Shown: positions 40,228-47,813 of the stretch, piece by piece
How the letters are laid out: each line of letters begins with the position of its first letter
How positions within the stretch are numbered: the stretch's first letter is position 1
Assembly: GCA_014859375.1 (NCBI GenBank)
Contig: JACUUH010000010.1
Location: 1 to 57,427, forward strand
Direction: 5' to 3'
DNA from: Gammaproteobacteria bacterium
GTDB lineage: Bacteria > Pseudomonadota > Gammaproteobacteria > Nitrosococcales > Methylophagaceae
DNA: 57,427 nucleotides
Notes under the pieces: generated by a model
What the model was told of the DNA's origin: nothing
Seen by the model: only the letters and a program-made list of their open reading frames with translations
The model's database searches: none
Position numbers and translations under genes: made by a program

Positions 40228-41157
40228 ATGAAGATTATTTTTGCCGGCACGCCGGAATTTGCCGCAGAAACACTTAAGGCTTTGTTAACAACAGAACATG
40301 AAATCTGTGCTGTCTACACTCAACCCGATCGACCTGCTGGACGAGGTCGAAAACTGACAGCAAGCCCAGTCAAACAATTAGCATTACGCCATGATCTGAG
40401 AGTTGAGCAACCTGTTAATTTCAAGTCTGACGAGGATCGACAAACCTTAGCTGATTTTCAGGCTGATTTAATGATTGTTGTTGCCTATGGCTTACTATTG
40501 CCCCAAAGCGTATTGGATATGCCTAACTATGGCTGTATCAATATTCACGCCTCATTGTTACCTCGCTGGCGAGGAGCAGCACCCATTCAACGTGCTTTAT
40601 TAGCCGGTGATAATCAAACAGGTATCTGCATTATGCAAATGGAGGCGGGCTTAGACACTGGGCCAGTATTATCACGCGCAACCTGCCCAATTCATGATGA
40701 CGATACTGCCACAACACTACATGACCGCCTAGCCGAACTTGGTGCCAACACCTTATTATCAACCTTGCCTAATCTTGTTGATTTACAACAGCATGCCGAA
40801 GTTCAAGATGATAGCCAGAGCTGTTATGCAGAAAAGCTTCGTAAACAAGAAGCAGTGATAGATTGGCAACAATCAGCACGACAGATTGCACGACAAATTC
40901 ATGCCTTTAACCCATGGCCAGTAGCCCAAACACTCTGGCGTGATGCTGTATTTCGAATTTGGTCTGCTCACGTAATCAGTGATCATTCTAGTGCCAAGCC
41001 AGGTGATATCATTGCCGTACAGCGTCAGGGTATTGATATTGCGACCAATGATGGTGTGTTACGAGTGACCGAAGTACAACTACCAGGTAAACGCGCCATG
41101 TCTGTTGTTGACTTTTTAAATGCTAATTCACCAGACATAGGCGAGCATCTTGGCTAA
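40228..41157 (+). CDS. fmt: Methionyl-tRNA formyltransferase
   Basis: 309-residue enzyme formylating initiator tRNA. The catalytic stretch GCINIHASLLPRWRGAAPIQRALLAGD (Asn, His and the later Asp) is near residue 107, and IIFAGTPEFAAETL is the N-terminal motif. Its end overlaps rsmB by 8 bases. Confidence 0.98.
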   Translation: MKIIFAGTPEFAAETLKALLTTEHEICAVYTQPDRPAGRGRKLTASPVKQLALRHDLRVEQPVNFKSDEDRQTLADFQADLMIVVAYGLLLPQSVLDMPNYGCINIHASLLPRWRGAAPIQRALLAGDNQTGICIMQMEAGLDTGPVLSRATCPIHDDDTATTLHDRLAELGANTLLSTLPNLVDLQQHAEVQDDSQSCYAEKLRKQEAVIDWQQSARQIARQIHAFNPWPVAQTLWRDAVFRIWSAHVISDHSSAKPGDIIAVQRQGIDIATNDGVLRVTEVQLPGKRAMSVVDFLNANSPDIGEHLG

Positions 41158-42454
41158 AAAACATTCTGCCCGTGCTAATGCCGCCCGCATCATTTCGGAT
41201 GTTATACACCAGCATCGCTCGCTAAACGGACTACTGGCAAACTCCTTACCACATTTAGCAGACAATGAACGTAGCTTATGTCAGCAACTCTGTTACGGTG
41301 TAATCCGCTGGCAACCACAACTTCAAGCCATTGCAGATCTGTTAGTAAAAAAACCGCTCAAAAACAAAGATGGCGATATTAATGCATTATTACTGTGCGG
41401 TTTATATCAATTACGCGCGATGCGCATTCCAGAACATGCAGCGCTATCTGAAACTGTCAATGCTGCTAAAACACTTGGAAAACAGTGGGCATCAGGCTTA
41501 ATTAATGCAAGTCTCAGACATTATCAGCGTGAAAAAGACGCGATTGACGCTCAGGCATTACAATCACCTTCATCCCTGTTTGCTCATCCAGATTGGTTGA
41601 TTAATCGTTTTCAACAAGATTGGCCAGAACAATGGCAATCACTATTGGATGCTAACAACCAGCAACCGCCAATGATCTTGCGTGTTAATCAACAATACTG
41701 TTCACGTAACCAATACCTTGATCGATTAGCTGGTGCAGAAATCACTGCTTCAGCTTTGCCTGATACCGCTCATGGCATCATATTGGCGTCTGCATGTGAC
41801 GTGTATTCTCTTCCTGGCTTTAACCAAGGTCATATTTCTATACAAGATGGTGCCGCACAACGTGTTATCGATTTGCTTGATATTAAAGCCCAGCAACGTA
41901 TTTTAGATGCTTGTGCCGCGCCTGGAGGCAAAACCTGTCATATCCTTGAAACTCAACCAGATAATGAGGTTGTGGCCATAGATATTGATCCTGATCGCCT
42001 TGTTCAAATTAAACAAAATACCGATCGTTTAGGATTAAAAGCACAGCTTATTGCCGCAGATGCTGCAGATACAACCTCATGGTGGGATGGAACAAAGTTT
42101 GATCGTATTCTGATTGATGCACCATGCTCAGGTACTGGCGTTATTAGACGTCACCCTGATATTAAATTGCTGCGCCGTCCAGACGATATTGCAAACTTAG
42201 CATTAAAACAACAACAGTTACTTGAAAGTTTATGGCCTTTGCTCAACACTAGCGGCTTATTAGTGTATACAACCTGCTCGGTTATTCAGCAGGAAAATGA
42301 GCAACAGATCATGAATTTTTTACAGAATCATCCTGAAGCACAAGAACATGTTGCTGACATTGCGCCAGCCACTCGTCGACAAGCGGGCTATCAACGCTTA
42401 CCTGGTGAAGACCAACTAGATGGCTTTTACTATGCCTGCCTTCGCCACCGCTAA
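41150..42454 (+). CDS. rsmB: 16S rRNA (cytosine967-C5)-methyltransferase
   Basis: 434 residues: an N-terminal NusB-like RNA-binding domain (about 1-140) and a C-terminal SAM methyltransferase. The SAM motif DACAAPGGKTCHILE is near residue 252; the catalytic Cys are in DAPCSGTGVIRRHPDI and TTCSV. The start is a TTG inside the end of fmt (GGCGAG upstream), fitting the series def-fmt-rsmB. Confidence 0.96.
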   Translation: MAKKHSARANAARIISDVIHQHRSLNGLLANSLPHLADNERSLCQQLCYGVIRWQPQLQAIADLLVKKPLKNKDGDINALLLCGLYQLRAMRIPEHAALSETVNAAKTLGKQWASGLINASLRHYQREKDAIDAQALQSPSSLFAHPDWLINRFQQDWPEQWQSLLDANNQQPPMILRVNQQYCSRNQYLDRLAGAEITASALPDTAHGIILASACDVYSLPGFNQGHISIQDGAAQRVIDLLDIKAQQRILDACAAPGGKTCHILETQPDNEVVAIDIDPDRLVQIKQNTDRLGLKAQLIAADAADTTSWWDGTKFDRILIDAPCSGTGVIRRHPDIKLLRRPDDIANLALKQQQLLESLWPLLNTSGLLVYTTCSVIQQENEQQIMNFLQNHPEAQEHVADIAPATRRQAGYQRLPGEDQLDGFYYACLRHR

Positions 42455-43007
42455 ACTCAATCTCATTTTACTCAGTCTGCTATTGCTGATTAGCACCAGC
42501 AGTGTTGCAGCAAAATTCAGTGTTGATAGTGCGGTTATCACTAAAATTGGTAATGGCTACTCCTTAGAGGCCGATATAAATTACTCACTCACACCACGCG
42601 TAAAAGAAGCGATTGCCAATGGCGTTCCAATTGTATTTGTACAGGAACTGGAAATTATTCAGGCCTTGCCATTGCTTGGACAATTTTGGCAATGGCAAAA
42701 CACCTTATGGTCGACCAGTCTGCGTTATGAATTGCGCTACCATGCGCTGACAAATCAATATGTTGTCAATGATCTCGACACCGATCATCATAGAAGCTTT
42801 ATTTCACTTGAGGCAGCATTAGATGCCTTAGGCACCATTGAAGCATTTACCCTGCCGCCAGAACATATGACCGATACCGATAATCTTCATATTTATTTAC
42901 GAACCAGCCTCGACCTGCTAGAGCTGCCAACGCCGATGCGACCAGGAGCATTACTCTCTTCCAAGTGGCAATTAGGTAGTCCCTGGACTGAAGCAACATG
43001 GCAATGA
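42420..43007 (+). CDS. DUF4390 exported protein
   Basis: 195 residues with an N-terminal signal peptide (to about residue 30, SSVAA) and a soluble part opening FSVDSAVITKIGNGYSLEADINYSLTPRVKEAIANGVPI, typical of DUF4390. Function unknown. It lies between rsmB (35-base overlap) and the ntrY-like kinase (ATGA overlap), the usual place of this family, which hints at a link with the kinase's signal. GAAG lies 9 bases before the ATG at 42420; ATG at 42432 is an alternative. Confidence 0.88.
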   Translation: MAFTMPAFATAKLNLILLSLLLLISTSSVAAKFSVDSAVITKIGNGYSLEADINYSLTPRVKEAIANGVPIVFVQELEIIQALPLLGQFWQWQNTLWSTSLRYELRYHALTNQYVVNDLDTDHHRSFISLEAALDALGTIEAFTLPPEHMTDTDNLHIYLRTSLDLLELPTPMRPGALLSSKWQLGSPWTEATWQ

Positions 43008-45163
43008 AACTGATTAAACGTTTAAGTTCGGGAACGACGCCTTATTTCTCACTTGCCGTTTTGCTGGTTGTATTAGCCTATTTACTGACGGCTGCAACCT
43101 CAGATAGCTCAAGACTAAATGACTTATTTTTAGTTATTTTTGGCTTGGGGCTCGTGATACTCATTCTATTGGCAGCTATTTTAGTAAGAAGCTTACACCG
43201 ACTTTACAAGGACTTTAAACAAAGAGAAGCAGGCTCACGCTTAACTGTTCGTTTAGTCAGCCTATTTGTTTTATTGATCTTAGTTTCAACAACCATTGTT
43301 TATAGTTTTTCAATTCATTTCCTGCATCGAGGCATCAACAGCTGGTTTGATGTCGAAATCGAACAGGCGCTTGACGATGCACTCGAATTAAGTCGCTCCT
43401 CTTTTGGTATCCGCATGAGAACTCTGTTACGTCAAACTCGGTTGATGTCAGGAGTCTTGAGTGAGCTGCCTGATAATGAGCTCAATCATGGATTACGTGA
43501 ACTTAATCAGCTCAGTGGTGCCATCGAAATGAGCATTTGGAACATGAATGGGCAACTGATCACATCAAGCATAGAAAATCCAACAATAATGGTACCCCAT
43601 CGGCCTGATGATGCCATTTTTAGACAACTGGAACAACAAGAAGACTACATTGGACTAGATCCTGGTGATAATGATGAGTTTCAGCTGAGAGCAGCGGTAC
43701 GTATCCCTAAAAAATCCTTGTTACAACAGGACAGAATACTTCATGTTATGTTTCCTGTTAACGAACGTCTCAGCACATTAGGTAAAACCGTTCAAGATGC
43801 CTATACAGATTACAAAGAGCTCAGTTATTTAAGAAAACCATTAATCACGATATTTACACTGACATTAAGCCTCATCGTTTTGTTAACCGTTTTAGCGTCT
43901 ATCTGGTTTGCAGTATGGATTTCAAGACGGATTGTCCATCCGCTTCAAGAACTGGCTGATGGTACCCAATCAGTTGCTTCAGGTAACTACAACACCCAAC
44001 TCACCACCTCTAACCATGATGAAATTGGCTTTTTAGTCCGCTCATTTAATCAAATGACCCAGCGCCTTACCCAAGAACGCAATGCCTCACAACGTAGTCA
44101 TCGCATGCTTGAGCAACAAACAAACTATCTGGGTGCTGTACTAGGAAGTTTATCAAGCGGTGTTATCACCTTAGATGACAGCTATCACTTAAAAACAGCC
44201 AATGTTGCCAGCAGCGCTATCCTGGATGTTAAGTTGCAACACTACCTCGAGTATTCGCTCACACACATTAGTGACAAGCATAAGCACTTAGAGATCTTTG
44301 TTGACATGATCCTGACGCAAATCAAACGTCATCAAAATTGGCAACAACAGCTTGAATTACACCCTAAAAAGCGACGTCAATCCTTAATGTGTAGAGGCAC
44401 ATTACTACCCAATGATGCGGGCTGGGTTATCGTATTTGATGACATTACAACCTTACTGCAAGCCCAACGAAATGCAGCATGGGGCGAAGTCGCAAGACGA
44501 CTTGCGCACGAAATCAAAAATCCACTGACCCCGATTCAACTGTCTGCAGAACGTCTACAGCATAAATATGGTGCGTTATTACCCGATGATCAAACCGATC
44601 TACTCAACAAATTAACCAACACCATCATTCAGCAAGTTGATGCCATGAAAGATATGGTTAATGATTTTTCTGATTATGCACGCAATCCAGGATTACAATT
44701 GGCAAAACACAATATTGCTAACATCATCAAAGAAGTGCTTGCTTTATACCAAAGCCATCCCAATCACTCTGTTTCTCTAAAACAAAACACAGATGAAATA
44801 GTGCTTAAAGTTGATAGTAACCGCTTAAGACAGGTACTCCACAACCTCTTAAAAAATGCCATTGAAGCCAGCGAAGAAGCAAATCTGCCCGTTACCATTG
44901 AAATTGAATTGTCACAGGTTCAACATAACCATAACAACTGGTTAGAACTGGCGGTATTCGATCATGGCCCTGGTATTCCAGACGAAATGCTGGCAAGGCT
45001 ATTTGAGCCTTATGCCACTAATAAGTTGAAAGGTACCGGACTTGGACTCGCCATCGTCAAAAAAATTATTGAAGAACACCATGGGTTGGTCTGGGCAGAA
45101 AACAGGAATGTTAACGGAGCCTGTATACTGATTCGGTTGCCATTGGAGGATCCCGATTTATGA
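43004..45163 (+). CDS. NtrY-like membrane sensor histidine kinase
   Basis: About 719 residues from the ATG overlapping the DUF4390 stop. Two N-terminal helices (about 14-32 and 40-62), a further helix (about 84-104), a periplasmic sensor region, a helix at about 280-308, a HAMP domain (about 309-360), a PAS-like region, a HisKA domain with the His in RRLAHEIKNPLTPIQLSAERL near residue 502, and an HATPase domain (NLLKNAIEAS, DHGPGIPDE, GTGLGLAIVKKI). The layout fits NtrY. The signal is unknown. It is followed by its response regulator with an ATGA overlap. Confidence 0.93.
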   Translation: MKLIKRLSSGTTPYFSLAVLLVVLAYLLTAATSDSSRLNDLFLVIFGLGLVILILLAAILVRSLHRLYKDFKQREAGSRLTVRLVSLFVLLILVSTTIVYSFSIHFLHRGINSWFDVEIEQALDDALELSRSSFGIRMRTLLRQTRLMSGVLSELPDNELNHGLRELNQLSGAIEMSIWNMNGQLITSSIENPTIMVPHRPDDAIFRQLEQQEDYIGLDPGDNDEFQLRAAVRIPKKSLLQQDRILHVMFPVNERLSTLGKTVQDAYTDYKELSYLRKPLITIFTLTLSLIVLLTVLASIWFAVWISRRIVHPLQELADGTQSVASGNYNTQLTTSNHDEIGFLVRSFNQMTQRLTQERNASQRSHRMLEQQTNYLGAVLGSLSSGVITLDDSYHLKTANVASSAILDVKLQHYLEYSLTHISDKHKHLEIFVDMILTQIKRHQNWQQQLELHPKKRRQSLMCRGTLLPNDAGWVIVFDDITTLLQAQRNAAWGEVARRLAHEIKNPLTPIQLSAERLQHKYGALLPDDQTDLLNKLTNTIIQQVDAMKDMVNDFSDYARNPGLQLAKHNIANIIKEVLALYQSHPNHSVSLKQNTDEIVLKVDSNRLRQVLHNLLKNAIEASEEANLPVTIEIELSQVQHNHNNWLELAVFDHGPGIPDEMLARLFEPYATNKLKGTGLGLAIVKKIIEEHHGLVWAENRNVNGACILIRLPLEDPDL

Positions 45164-46443
45164 GTAAAAGTGATACCCACATTTTAATTGTTGACGATGA
45201 ACCTGATATTCGTGATTTGATTAAGGACATCTTAGGCGATGAAGGTTATCAAGTATCAACAGCATCAGATGGTATGACCGCGCGTACCGCTGTAAACCAA
45301 CATCGTCCAAACCTCATTTTGCTTGATATTTGGATGCCAGACGTTGATGGCATCTCACTGCTACGTGAATTCATGGACTATGACTCACAATCAACCATTG
45401 TGATGATGTCTGGCCATGGCACCATTGAAACAGCTGTTGAAGCAACACGACTTGGTGCCGCAGATTTTATTGAAAAACCACTGTCTACCGCGAAATTACT
45501 GCGTGGGGTCGAAGTTGCGCTGGAAAACAAAGCAAAACAAATCGCTAAACACCAGTTTGAAGTTCAAGAACCTGTTGGAAAAAGCCAGCAAATAACGTTA
45601 TTACGTGAGCAGGCTGCCAGAGTCGCCAAGCACAATATGCCGATCTTACTAATCGGTGAAGGTGGTACAGGTAAACATTGCTTTGCACATTACCTGCATT
45701 CGCTTGGTCCGTATTCCAAAGGGAAATTCATTGAATTAACGGATGAAACATTTCCCCTAGACAGCCAAAAACTCATTTCGCTCGCTAATAATTGCTGCGT
45801 CTTTCTCAATGATATTTCTTTGCTCAGTGACAAAGCTCAAGCGCTATTGTCACATATGCTAGAAACCAAAAAACTGGAAAATTGCCAACTTATTTTTTCG
45901 ACACAACATTCGCTTGAACAGGCAGTCAGCAACAATAGTTTCCAAGAAGCGTTGTTATACCAAATCAACAGCATTAGTCTGGTTATTCCGCCATTACGAG
46001 AACATATTGAGGACATTCCTGAACTGGTTCACCACTTTGTTGACCAACATACAACTCAGGCACAGCTACCCTATCGCCATTTTACTGTTGCCGCACAAAA
46101 TCGGCTAAGAAACTATACCTGGCCAGGCAATGTGCTCGAACTCAAAAATATTGTTCAGCGCCTGTTGTTGTTAAGCGAAGACAATGAAATTGATGACGCT
46201 GATATCGATCTCACCCTACAATCTGCAAATCAAGATGCTAACGATGACAATGCTATCAATTATGATCTACCGCTACGTGAAGCAAGGGAACAGTTTGAAC
46301 GAATTTATTTACTGCATAAGCTTGAACATACAGATGGCAATGTTGGCAAAGCAGCCAAATTAGCCGGTATGGAGCGTACCCACCTTTATCGCAAACTACG
46401 CTCTTTAGGCATTGACACCAAACAAACTCAGGACAATTTATGA
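45160..46443 (+). CDS. NtrX-like response regulator with degenerate AAA+ domain
   Basis: 427 residues: REC domain with acceptor Asp56 (ILLDIWMPD), a central domain aligned with sigma-54 activator ATPases, and a C-terminal Fis-type helix-turn-helix (about 391-416, [21 protein letters not shown]). The central domain keeps a Walker A (GEGGTGKH, 166-173) but has lost the GAFTGA loop: only 45 residues lie between the Walker A Lys and the Walker B position, against about 64 in NtrC. The Walker B reads VFLNDI in place of FLDEI, and the arginine-finger region reads [10 protein letters not shown] in place of FREDLYYRLN. It probably binds DNA but cannot remodel sigma-54 polymerase. Overlaps ntrY and trkA by ATGA. 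Confidence 0.93.
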
Positions 46444-47813
46444 AAATTCTGATTCTCGGTGCAGGTCAAGTAGGCTCATCGGTAGCGGCAAGTCTTGCAC
46501 GTGAAGATAATGACATCACGGTGGTTGATACCAATAGTGATCTACTCATTGGATTACAAGATCATTATGATATTCGGACACTACAAGGTTTAGCATCGCA
46601 TCCAGACATTCTGGCTAAAGCAGGTGCTGAAGATGCCGATCTTGTTTTAGCCGTAACTGATAGCGATGAAACCAATATTGTAGCCTGCCAGATTTGCCAT
46701 AACCTGTATCACACACCAACCAAAATTGCTCGCATTCGTAGTCCTGAATATCTGGCTGTACCTGAATTATTCAATAATGATGCTATTGCTATCGATATGT
46801 TGATTAGTCCGGAACAAATTGTTACCGACTATATCGAACGGCTAATTAATCACCCTAACGCATTACAGGTACTCGATTTTGCTGATAAAAAAGTGCAGTT
46901 AGTAGCAGTGAAAGCGTTTCATGGTGGTCCACTTGTTGGTAAACCCATTAAAGATCTTCGTCACCATATGCCTAAAAAGGATACGCGTGTTGCCGCTATT
47001 TTTAGAAATGGTCACCCCATTTTTCCAAGAGCCGAAACCGTTATTGAAAATGATGATGAAGTCTTTTTTATTGCCGCCAGCGAGAACATTTTTTCAGTGA
47101 TGAGTCAACTGCGCCGTGTAGATAAACCCTATAAACGGATTATGCTTGCTGGTGGTGGTCTAATTGGTGCGCGACTGGCTAAAGCACTTGAACACAACTA
47201 CAACGTAAAGTTAATTGAAGTAAATGCCAAGCGTGCCGAATTTCTATCTGAAGAACTGTCAAATACAATCGTGCTGCACGGTGATGTTGCAAACGAGGAT
47301 ATACTGCGCGAAGAAGATATTGATAAAGTCGATTTATTCTGTGCCTTAACTAATGATGACGAAGCCAACATTCTATCGGCAATGTTGGCAAAACGTTTGG
47401 GCGCAAGAAAAGTATTATCACTCATCAACCGAGCTTCTTATGTTGATTTGATTGAAAGTAGTAACATTGACATTGCGATCTCGCCGCAACAAGCAACGAT
47501 TGGTAGCTTATTAGCTCATATTCGTCGTGGTGATATTGTAGCTGTTCACTCACTTCGTCGTGGTGCGGCTGAAGCATTGGAAGCAGTAGCGCATGGCGAT
47601 CGCGATTCATCGCTAGTCGTTGGACGACGTATAGATGAAATCAATTTACCACCAGGTACGACAATAGGTGCCATTGTGCGTGGCGATCAAGTCATTATCA
47701 CCCATCATGATACGGTGATCGAAGCCAACGACCATGTTATCTTGTTCTTAATCAATAAACGTCACATAGAGCAGGTCGAGCGTCTGTTCCAGGTTGGATT
47801 TAATTTCTTTTAA
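46440..47813 (+). CDS. trkA: Trk potassium uptake protein TrkA
   Basis: 457-residue cytoplasmic regulator of Trk potassium channels. Two RCK halves each start with a nucleotide-binding fold ([15 protein letters not shown] at residue 3; [17 protein letters not shown] at about 233) followed by a TrkA-C domain. It overlaps the ntrX-like gene by ATGA. The partner TrkH is not in the window. Confidence 0.97.

Follow-up and report, generated by a model that had tools for sequence, protein, structure and literature searches.

An NtrX response regulator of Methylophagaceae that keeps its P-loop and lacks the elements for sigma54 activation

Bacterial enhancer-binding proteins (bEBPs), the activators of sigma54 promoters, are characterized by the motifs of their AAA+ domain: the Walker A (P-loop) and Walker B motifs, the arginine fingers, the sensor II arginine, the L1 loop with its GAFTGA motif and the pre-sensor I loop. 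The response regulator NtrX of Brucella abortus is said, in work of Fernandez in 2017, to have no GAFTGA, to bind nucleotides and to show no ATPase activity. The pre-sensor I insertion is treated in PMC2745333. NtrX proteins are said to fall into four classes (review, PMC12697260); Caulobacter NtrX is reported to have no GAFTGA (PMC10274813), and the NtrX of beta-proteobacteria is reported to be devoid of an AAA+ domain and to be functional, and genetic evidence points to an essential role of its phosphorylation in vitro (PMC13001219). In Sinorhizobium meliloti, NtrX lowers expression where a CAAN2-5TTG site overlaps the start site (PMC9223101). Here we describe the ntrX gene of contig JACUUH010000010.1 (assembly GCA_014859375.1, a Gammaproteobacteria bacterium of the Methylophagaceae and thus related to marine bacteria that live on methanol), analysed as one stretch of 57,427 nucleotides, called the window below.

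The window encodes an NtrX response regulator in which the P-loop is kept and the elements for sigma54 activation are absent. Its features are the following (HTH, helix-turn-helix).

45160..46443, forward strand: ntrX, 427-aa response regulator with REC, degenerate AAA+ and Fis-type HTH domains (open reading frame and domain profiles)
45178..45519, forward strand: REC domain, residues 7-120 (PF00072, 1.7e-30)
45325-45327, forward strand: phospho-acceptor D56 of REC (invariant in 80 aligned sequences)
45574..45996, forward strand: trimmed sigma54-interaction (AAA+) domain, residues 139-279 (PF14532 positions 1-138 of 138, 82.5 bits, 4.4e-23)
45655..45678, forward strand: Walker A / P-loop GEGGTGKH, residues 166-173, kept (K172 in 38/38 Methylophagaceae)
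45769..45771, forward strand: site after K204 where NtrC-type proteins have 20 more residues, the L1/GAFTGA segment (from the K-to-D spacing)
45799..45816, forward strand: Walker B position, VFLNDI for canonical LFLDEI (comparison with NtrC-family proteins of the same genome)
45877..45882, forward strand: residues 240/241, a junction lacking the 10 residues of the pre-sensor I (L2) hairpin (from the D-to-R1 spacing)
45943..45963, forward strand: arginine-finger stretch QEALLYQ, residues 262-268, both Arg being Gln (motif comparison)
46135..46137, forward strand: sensor II position, Leu326 in PGNVLEL for canonical Arg in PGNVREL (motif comparison)
46273..46419, forward strand: Fis-type HTH, residues 372-420 (PF02954, 1.1e-9)
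46372-46398, forward strand: recognition helix ERTHLYRKL, within the Fis-type HTH

Of the elements of a functional sigma54 bEBP, the protein has Walker A; GAFTGA, the Walker B Asp-Glu, the arginine fingers and the sensor II Arg are absent. Seven NtrC-family proteins, five from the same genome and two from relatives, served as yardstick bEBPs. K172 is separated from the Walker B position, N217, by 44 residues, compared with 64 in six of the seven, and from Walker B to the arginine finger there are 44, compared with 54 in all seven. PF14532 (gathering cut-off 25 bits) is matched end to end and better than PF00158, which matches in two pieces only (2e-16); Pfam also detects an AAA+ lid and, as HTH_8, an intact Fis-type HTH. 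NF051870 (NtrX) is the best of 114 NCBIfam models at 311.2 bits, below its equivalog cut-off of 600, which is a database threshold and not a biological trait.

A first-pass annotation of this DNA had placed the frame exactly. It had also described a kept Walker A, a missing GAFTGA loop (confirmed here by comparison with NtrC-family proteins of the same genome), a Walker B reading FLNDI and an arginine finger replaced by Gln; in fact both Arg are Gln, FQEALLYQI standing for canonical FREDLFHRL. Its REC and Fis domains are indeed intact: D12, D13, D56, S84 and K106 are invariant across 80 aligned sequences, and the HTH matches its profile. The Walker A-to-B distance had been put at 45 residues, about 20 fewer than in NtrC; the difference stands, and the count becomes 44 on recounting. 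Two losses had escaped it, the sensor II Arg and the 10 residues at the pre-sensor I loop.

The losses were followed in 38 distinct Methylophagaceae sequences among the retrieved loci (54 genomes of the family carry the gene, some in pieces), some of them from contigs that bear the titles Methylophaga thiooxydans DMS010, M. muralis Bur 1 and M. lonarensis MPL, and in 170 other NtrX of the class Gammaproteobacteria, which in GTDB includes the beta-proteobacteria. The 170 were taken from 57 named loci, 23 of 26 further loci and 90 of 92 fetched stretches, identical copies excluded; they belong to the relatives that score best against the window protein. Of 120 rows listed in the search for them, 28 that had no locus, mostly close to others, fell outside the sample. 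The window protein itself shares 95% identity with a protein whose contig is titled Gammaproteobacteria bacterium; its identity to proteins of contigs titled Methylophaga or Methylophagaceae is 66-75%.

Both spacings are 44, the Walker A Lys is kept, and no arginine-finger or sensor II Arg is present in any of the 38 family sequences, so that the alignment bears out the proposed absence of the sigma54 activation machinery. GAFTGA, exact or with one mismatch, was found in 0/38 Methylophagaceae and 0/170 other NtrX, the closest stretches being two-mismatch ones in three of the 170. Because none of the 170 has the motif, its absence is the usual state of these NtrX, and different lineages have lost the ATPase residues in differing combinations. 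Among the 170, the K-to-D spacing is 59 in 135 and the D-to-R1 spacing 54 in 151; the Walker B Glu is present in 76, the first finger Arg in 151, the second in 23, and the sensor II Arg in 143 (none of the 38). Only six have the full set of Walker A Lys, Asp-Glu, two Arg fingers and sensor II Arg. What is specific to Methylophagaceae is the loss of both loops and of the hydrolysis residues with retention of the P-loop Lys. The opposite pattern was observed in three loci (L075, L076 and L080) and other loci of Sedimenticola/Thiodiazotropha type, where GSGR replaces the P-loop GxGK and the Walker B Asp-Glu is intact.

In the tree, 10 Methylophagaceae rows lie inside a fork of 75 same-class NtrX rows with a Shimodaira-Hasegawa-like approximate likelihood ratio (SH-aLRT) support of 100, and four bEBPs of the same genome fall apart from that fork (SH-aLRT 99). 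Seven same-class NtrX-like proteins (L279-L283, L285, L286) are trimmed further and have also lost the P-loop Lys; six of them score 120-156 bits against PF14532 and L286 scores 62, the window protein standing at 82.5. The approximately unbiased (AU) test did not separate a single origin of the trimming in Methylophagaceae and these seven from independent ones (p 0.565). Among 28 further aligned proteins, two NtrX-like ones from one family of the same phylum carry GAFTGA (L300) and GAFAGA (L303), and a GAFTGA-bearing ancestor is therefore plausible.

The AAA+ domain is under purifying selection. The ratio of nonsynonymous to synonymous rates (dN/dS) was 0.015-0.174 for AAA+ (22 computable of 23 close pairs), 0-0.113 for REC and 0-0.034 for the HTH (23 close pairs); the HTH has the lowest mean entropy among the tabulated regions (0.24 bits). 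Chance, decay, or an assembly or sequencing error, was considered as the source of the deletions and is rejected, since both deletions recur with identical spacings in 38/38 sequences and the domain is constrained. The first-pass view that the change is conserved and not simple decay is thus upheld.

A broader form of the decay argument takes the core to be functionless and on its way to an AAA+-less NtrX. A graded series can be laid out in its favour, from a GAFTGA-less full core to one with both loops trimmed and to one with the P-loop lost (the seven proteins above), and AAA+-less NtrX is reported in beta-proteobacteria (PMC13001219). The low AAA+ dN/dS, the two spacings fixed in 38 sequences and the many invariant core residues speak against it. 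Moreover, no AAA+-less NtrX was seen among the matches listed for a REC+HTH query in the class, the frames listed being at least 440 aa except for one of 180 aa (G318). We consider this explanation improbable. The window protein is not of the AAA+-less (PlrR) type, as its AAA+ core is both recognized and modelled.

The AlphaFold2 model has a mean predicted local distance difference test (pLDDT) score of 84.5 and a predicted template modelling (pTM) score of 0.55; because of the latter, its domain arrangement is unsure. Its top Protein Data Bank matches are full-length Brucella NtrX (5m7n, 5m7o and 5m7p; by title these cover complexes with ATP and ADP as well as the protein without them), at Z 28-30 and a root-mean-square deviation (rmsd) of about 18 A, which is taken to reflect domain orientation. 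Taken by itself, the predicted AAA+ core superposes on FleQ with a deviation of about 2 A for about 220 residues.

The retained P-loop suggests a further possibility, a nucleotide-gated regulator in which binding of ATP or ADP without hydrolysis would set the dimer or DNA-binding state, phosphorylation and adenylate status being integrated. The Walker A Lys is present in 38/38 Methylophagaceae compared with 114/170 other NtrX, the P-loop and the following helix form the lowest-entropy tabulated AAA+ stretch of the family (mean 0.54 bits, compared with 1.45 in the other NtrX), and the Brucella structures are titled with both nucleotides. However, the family has no sensor II Arg, 29/38 sequences have Asn for the Walker B Asp, the residue after the P-loop Lys is His and not Glu in 36/38, the seven trimmed relatives do without the Lys, and the conservation of the P-loop could be structural. 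We therefore regard such gating as possible and rather doubtful. A more specific version, that the Methylophagaceae core is a loop-less, non-hydrolysing adenine-nucleotide-binding module gating a phosphorylation-controlled repressor or activator, would make it a survivor of the transition from GAFTGA-less NtrX to NtrX whose P-loop no longer works or whose domain is gone, a natural case of an AAA+ motor turned static ligand-binding scaffold; we offer it as a tentative proposal that is unlikely as it stands.

The host genome (G000) is a 2.35 Mb draft, 96.7% complete. The genes around ntrX overlap by short stretches in the order rsmB, DUF4390 gene, ntrY, ntrX, trkA.

41150..42454, forward strand: rsmB (NF008149, 2.4e-163)
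42420..43007, forward strand: DUF4390 gene, PlrP-type third component (PF14334, 5.5e-39)
42998..45163, forward strand: ntrY, partner sensor kinase, HAMP-HisKA-HATPase (Pfam), 4-base overlap with ntrX
46440..47813, forward strand: trkA (NF007032, 2.5e-224), 4-base overlap with ntrX

The same gene order is described for NtrYX of beta- and gamma-proteobacteria (PMC13001219). The locus has the layout and neighbourhood of the NtrYX family, with REC, AAA+ and Fis HTH in the regulator, a paired NtrY, and rsmB and the DUF4390 gene 5' of the kinase. The H-box (HEIKNP) and the G-boxes of NtrY are readable in the translation. An NtrX ortholog (at least 65% identity, some in pieces) is present in 54/57 genomes of the family and DUF4390 in the same 54; both are missing from G003, G011 and G056. 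Completeness is only 77% for G011, and the window NtrX finds its best matches at 30% identity in G011 and 34% in G056.

With good confidence, we conclude that the protein is a DNA-binding regulator controlled by phosphorylation and independent of sigma54, whose AAA+ domain is a scaffold that does not hydrolyse ATP and may still bind nucleotide. This conclusion draws on the domain content, the loss of the hydrolysis and sigma54-contact elements, their conservation, purifying selection, the predicted fold, the neighbourhood and the co-retention of DUF4390; what we infer beyond these is phosphorylation by NtrY, the DNA targets, the use of sigma70 promoters, dimerisation and nucleotide binding. 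NtrX would be the regulator of a PlrP-NtrY-NtrX signalling set, in which NtrY, probably modulated by the DUF4390 protein, would phosphorylate or dephosphorylate D56. Phosphorylated NtrX (NtrX~P) would bind promoter DNA via the conserved Fis-type HTH and, needing neither sigma54 nor ATP hydrolysis, would control promoters of the ordinary sigma70 type through occlusion or recruitment. The AAA+ core would act as a folded dimerisation and coupling scaffold and may bind nucleotide, since the P-loop is the part retained. An ordinary phosphate-switched DNA-binding regulator is the most likely form of the protein because such a loss is old, common and known in NtrX.

Two sets of results weigh against this conclusion. 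First, CAAN2-5TTG, the S. meliloti (alpha-proteobacterial) NtrX consensus, was searched before def and in the ntrYX region, and no conserved site was found in either. Before def, 7/20 relatives match within -300 to -1 at scattered positions, the single window site (-119) recurring at the same position only in the 95% relative; the ntrYX region gave 3 to 20 matches per 5.6 kb in 21 sequences, with no 6-base bin above 9. Second, rpoN is retained in 51/57 genomes of the family. It is present in 170/173 class genomes with a full-length-type NtrX match (E<=1e-75; 173 is a lower bound, as split matches such as that of G117 fall below the limit) compared with 140/197 others, and in 242/251 genomes with a REC+HTH match compared with 68/119 others. 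By itself, this co-occurrence does not favour sigma54 independence; genome reduction may explain it.

It could thus be argued that NtrX still activates sigma54 promoters via a different surface or in mixed oligomers with another bEBP. The tendency of NtrX and rpoN to co-occur in the class agrees with this, as does the host genome, which keeps rpoN and encodes four members of the NtrC family that bear motifs of GAFTGA type. Nevertheless, the window protein has neither of the loops that face sigma54 nor the intersubunit Arg fingers, and one genome, G216, keeps ntrYX without a sigma54 match; we judge sigma54 activation very improbable. G216 (1.7 Mb, 98% complete) has an open ntrY-ntrX-trkA locus (L263, G216 C23), with no match to Sigma54_DBD or Sigma54_CBD and no second window-NtrX match at E<=1e-20. 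Its NtrX has neither GAFTGA nor the P-loop Lys, and its HTH_8 is unrecognized at E<=0.001. It is one of three of the 173 genomes, all outside the family (G131, G216, G327), that match neither sigma54 domain, and the only convincing one, because the other two keep further bEBP-like matches. Within the 57 family genomes no sigma54-free member keeping NtrX was found. Six have no Sigma54_DBD match, and since five of these are incomplete (55-89%) and the sixth, G003, is also without NtrX, they do not serve as natural proof within Methylophagaceae.

G003 is a 1.1 Mb, 100% complete genome with no match to Sigma54_DBD, Sigma54_activat (E<=1e-30), NtrX or DUF4390. In the class, 9/251 genomes with a REC+HTH match have no Sigma54_DBD match (G091, G131, G139, G148, G216, G327, G339, G405, G407). 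Three single-contig genomes of 1.2-1.5 Mb (G148, G339, G405) have a REC+HTH match of 1e-37 to 1e-38, match neither Sigma54_DBD nor, at 1e-75, full-length NtrX, and are candidates, on sequence matches, for a strongly reduced or AAA+-less NtrX without sigma54. The host genome also encodes a second, different GAFTGA-less regulator (L005:1480-2412, G000 C56 near 60401). This NtrC-family protein of 310 aa has no REC domain and retains Walker A, Asp-Glu and the two Arg fingers; next to it lie what look, from their sequences, like a membrane protein of TauE/SafE type and a thymidylate synthase. Elsewhere, pathogenic Neisseria are reported to have an rpoN that is frameshifted or without DNA-binding parts (PMC6755734) and an NtrX that controls respiratory genes (PMC12697260).

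It is easy to annotate proteins of this kind as regulators specific for sigma54 or for nitrogen assimilation, and the elements for sigma54 activation are missing family-wide in Methylophagaceae. The graded loss, from GAFTGA to the loops and hydrolysis residues, to the P-loop and, as described by others, to the whole domain, provides a series for asking what a motorless AAA+ core does. The finding is a modest refinement of a state already described for NtrX. The first-pass annotation had proposed a new role; 0/208 class NtrX carry GAFTGA, and GAFTGA-less Caulobacter NtrX, AAA+-less beta NtrX and PF14532, already in Pfam, precede the window protein, so that its role is not new.

Among known systems, Brucella abortus NtrX has the same REC-AAA+-Fis layout and is the best sequence and fold match; the window protein differs in that both loops are cut and the Walker B, arginine-finger and sensor II residues are lost. 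It matches the whole of PF14532 (Sigma54_activ_2, 138 positions, a shorter sigma54-interaction domain), and keeps the P-loop Lys that seven further PF14532-matching relatives lack. The rsmB-DUF4390-kinase-regulator-trkA neighbourhood is that of Bordetella PlrR and beta NtrX, which is stated to have no AAA+ domain (PMC13001219), whereas the window protein keeps a core predicted to be folded. GAFTGA-less NtrC-family regulators acting at sigma70-type promoters are described in Caulobacter and Rhodobacter capsulatus (NtrC) and in Vibrio (VspR); these are NtrC or VspR and not NtrX, and Caulobacter NtrC needs conserved ATP-site residues and R. capsulatus NtrC ATP binding (PMC10274813). In S. meliloti, an alpha-proteobacterium, NtrX~P is a direct repressor or activator at CAAN2-5TTG sites (PMC9223101), and the phosphorylation-controlled DNA-binding role first suggested for the window protein fits such published NtrX. 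In conclusion, the trimmed type of NtrX is already known, and the window NtrX adds to it a combination of losses of its own.

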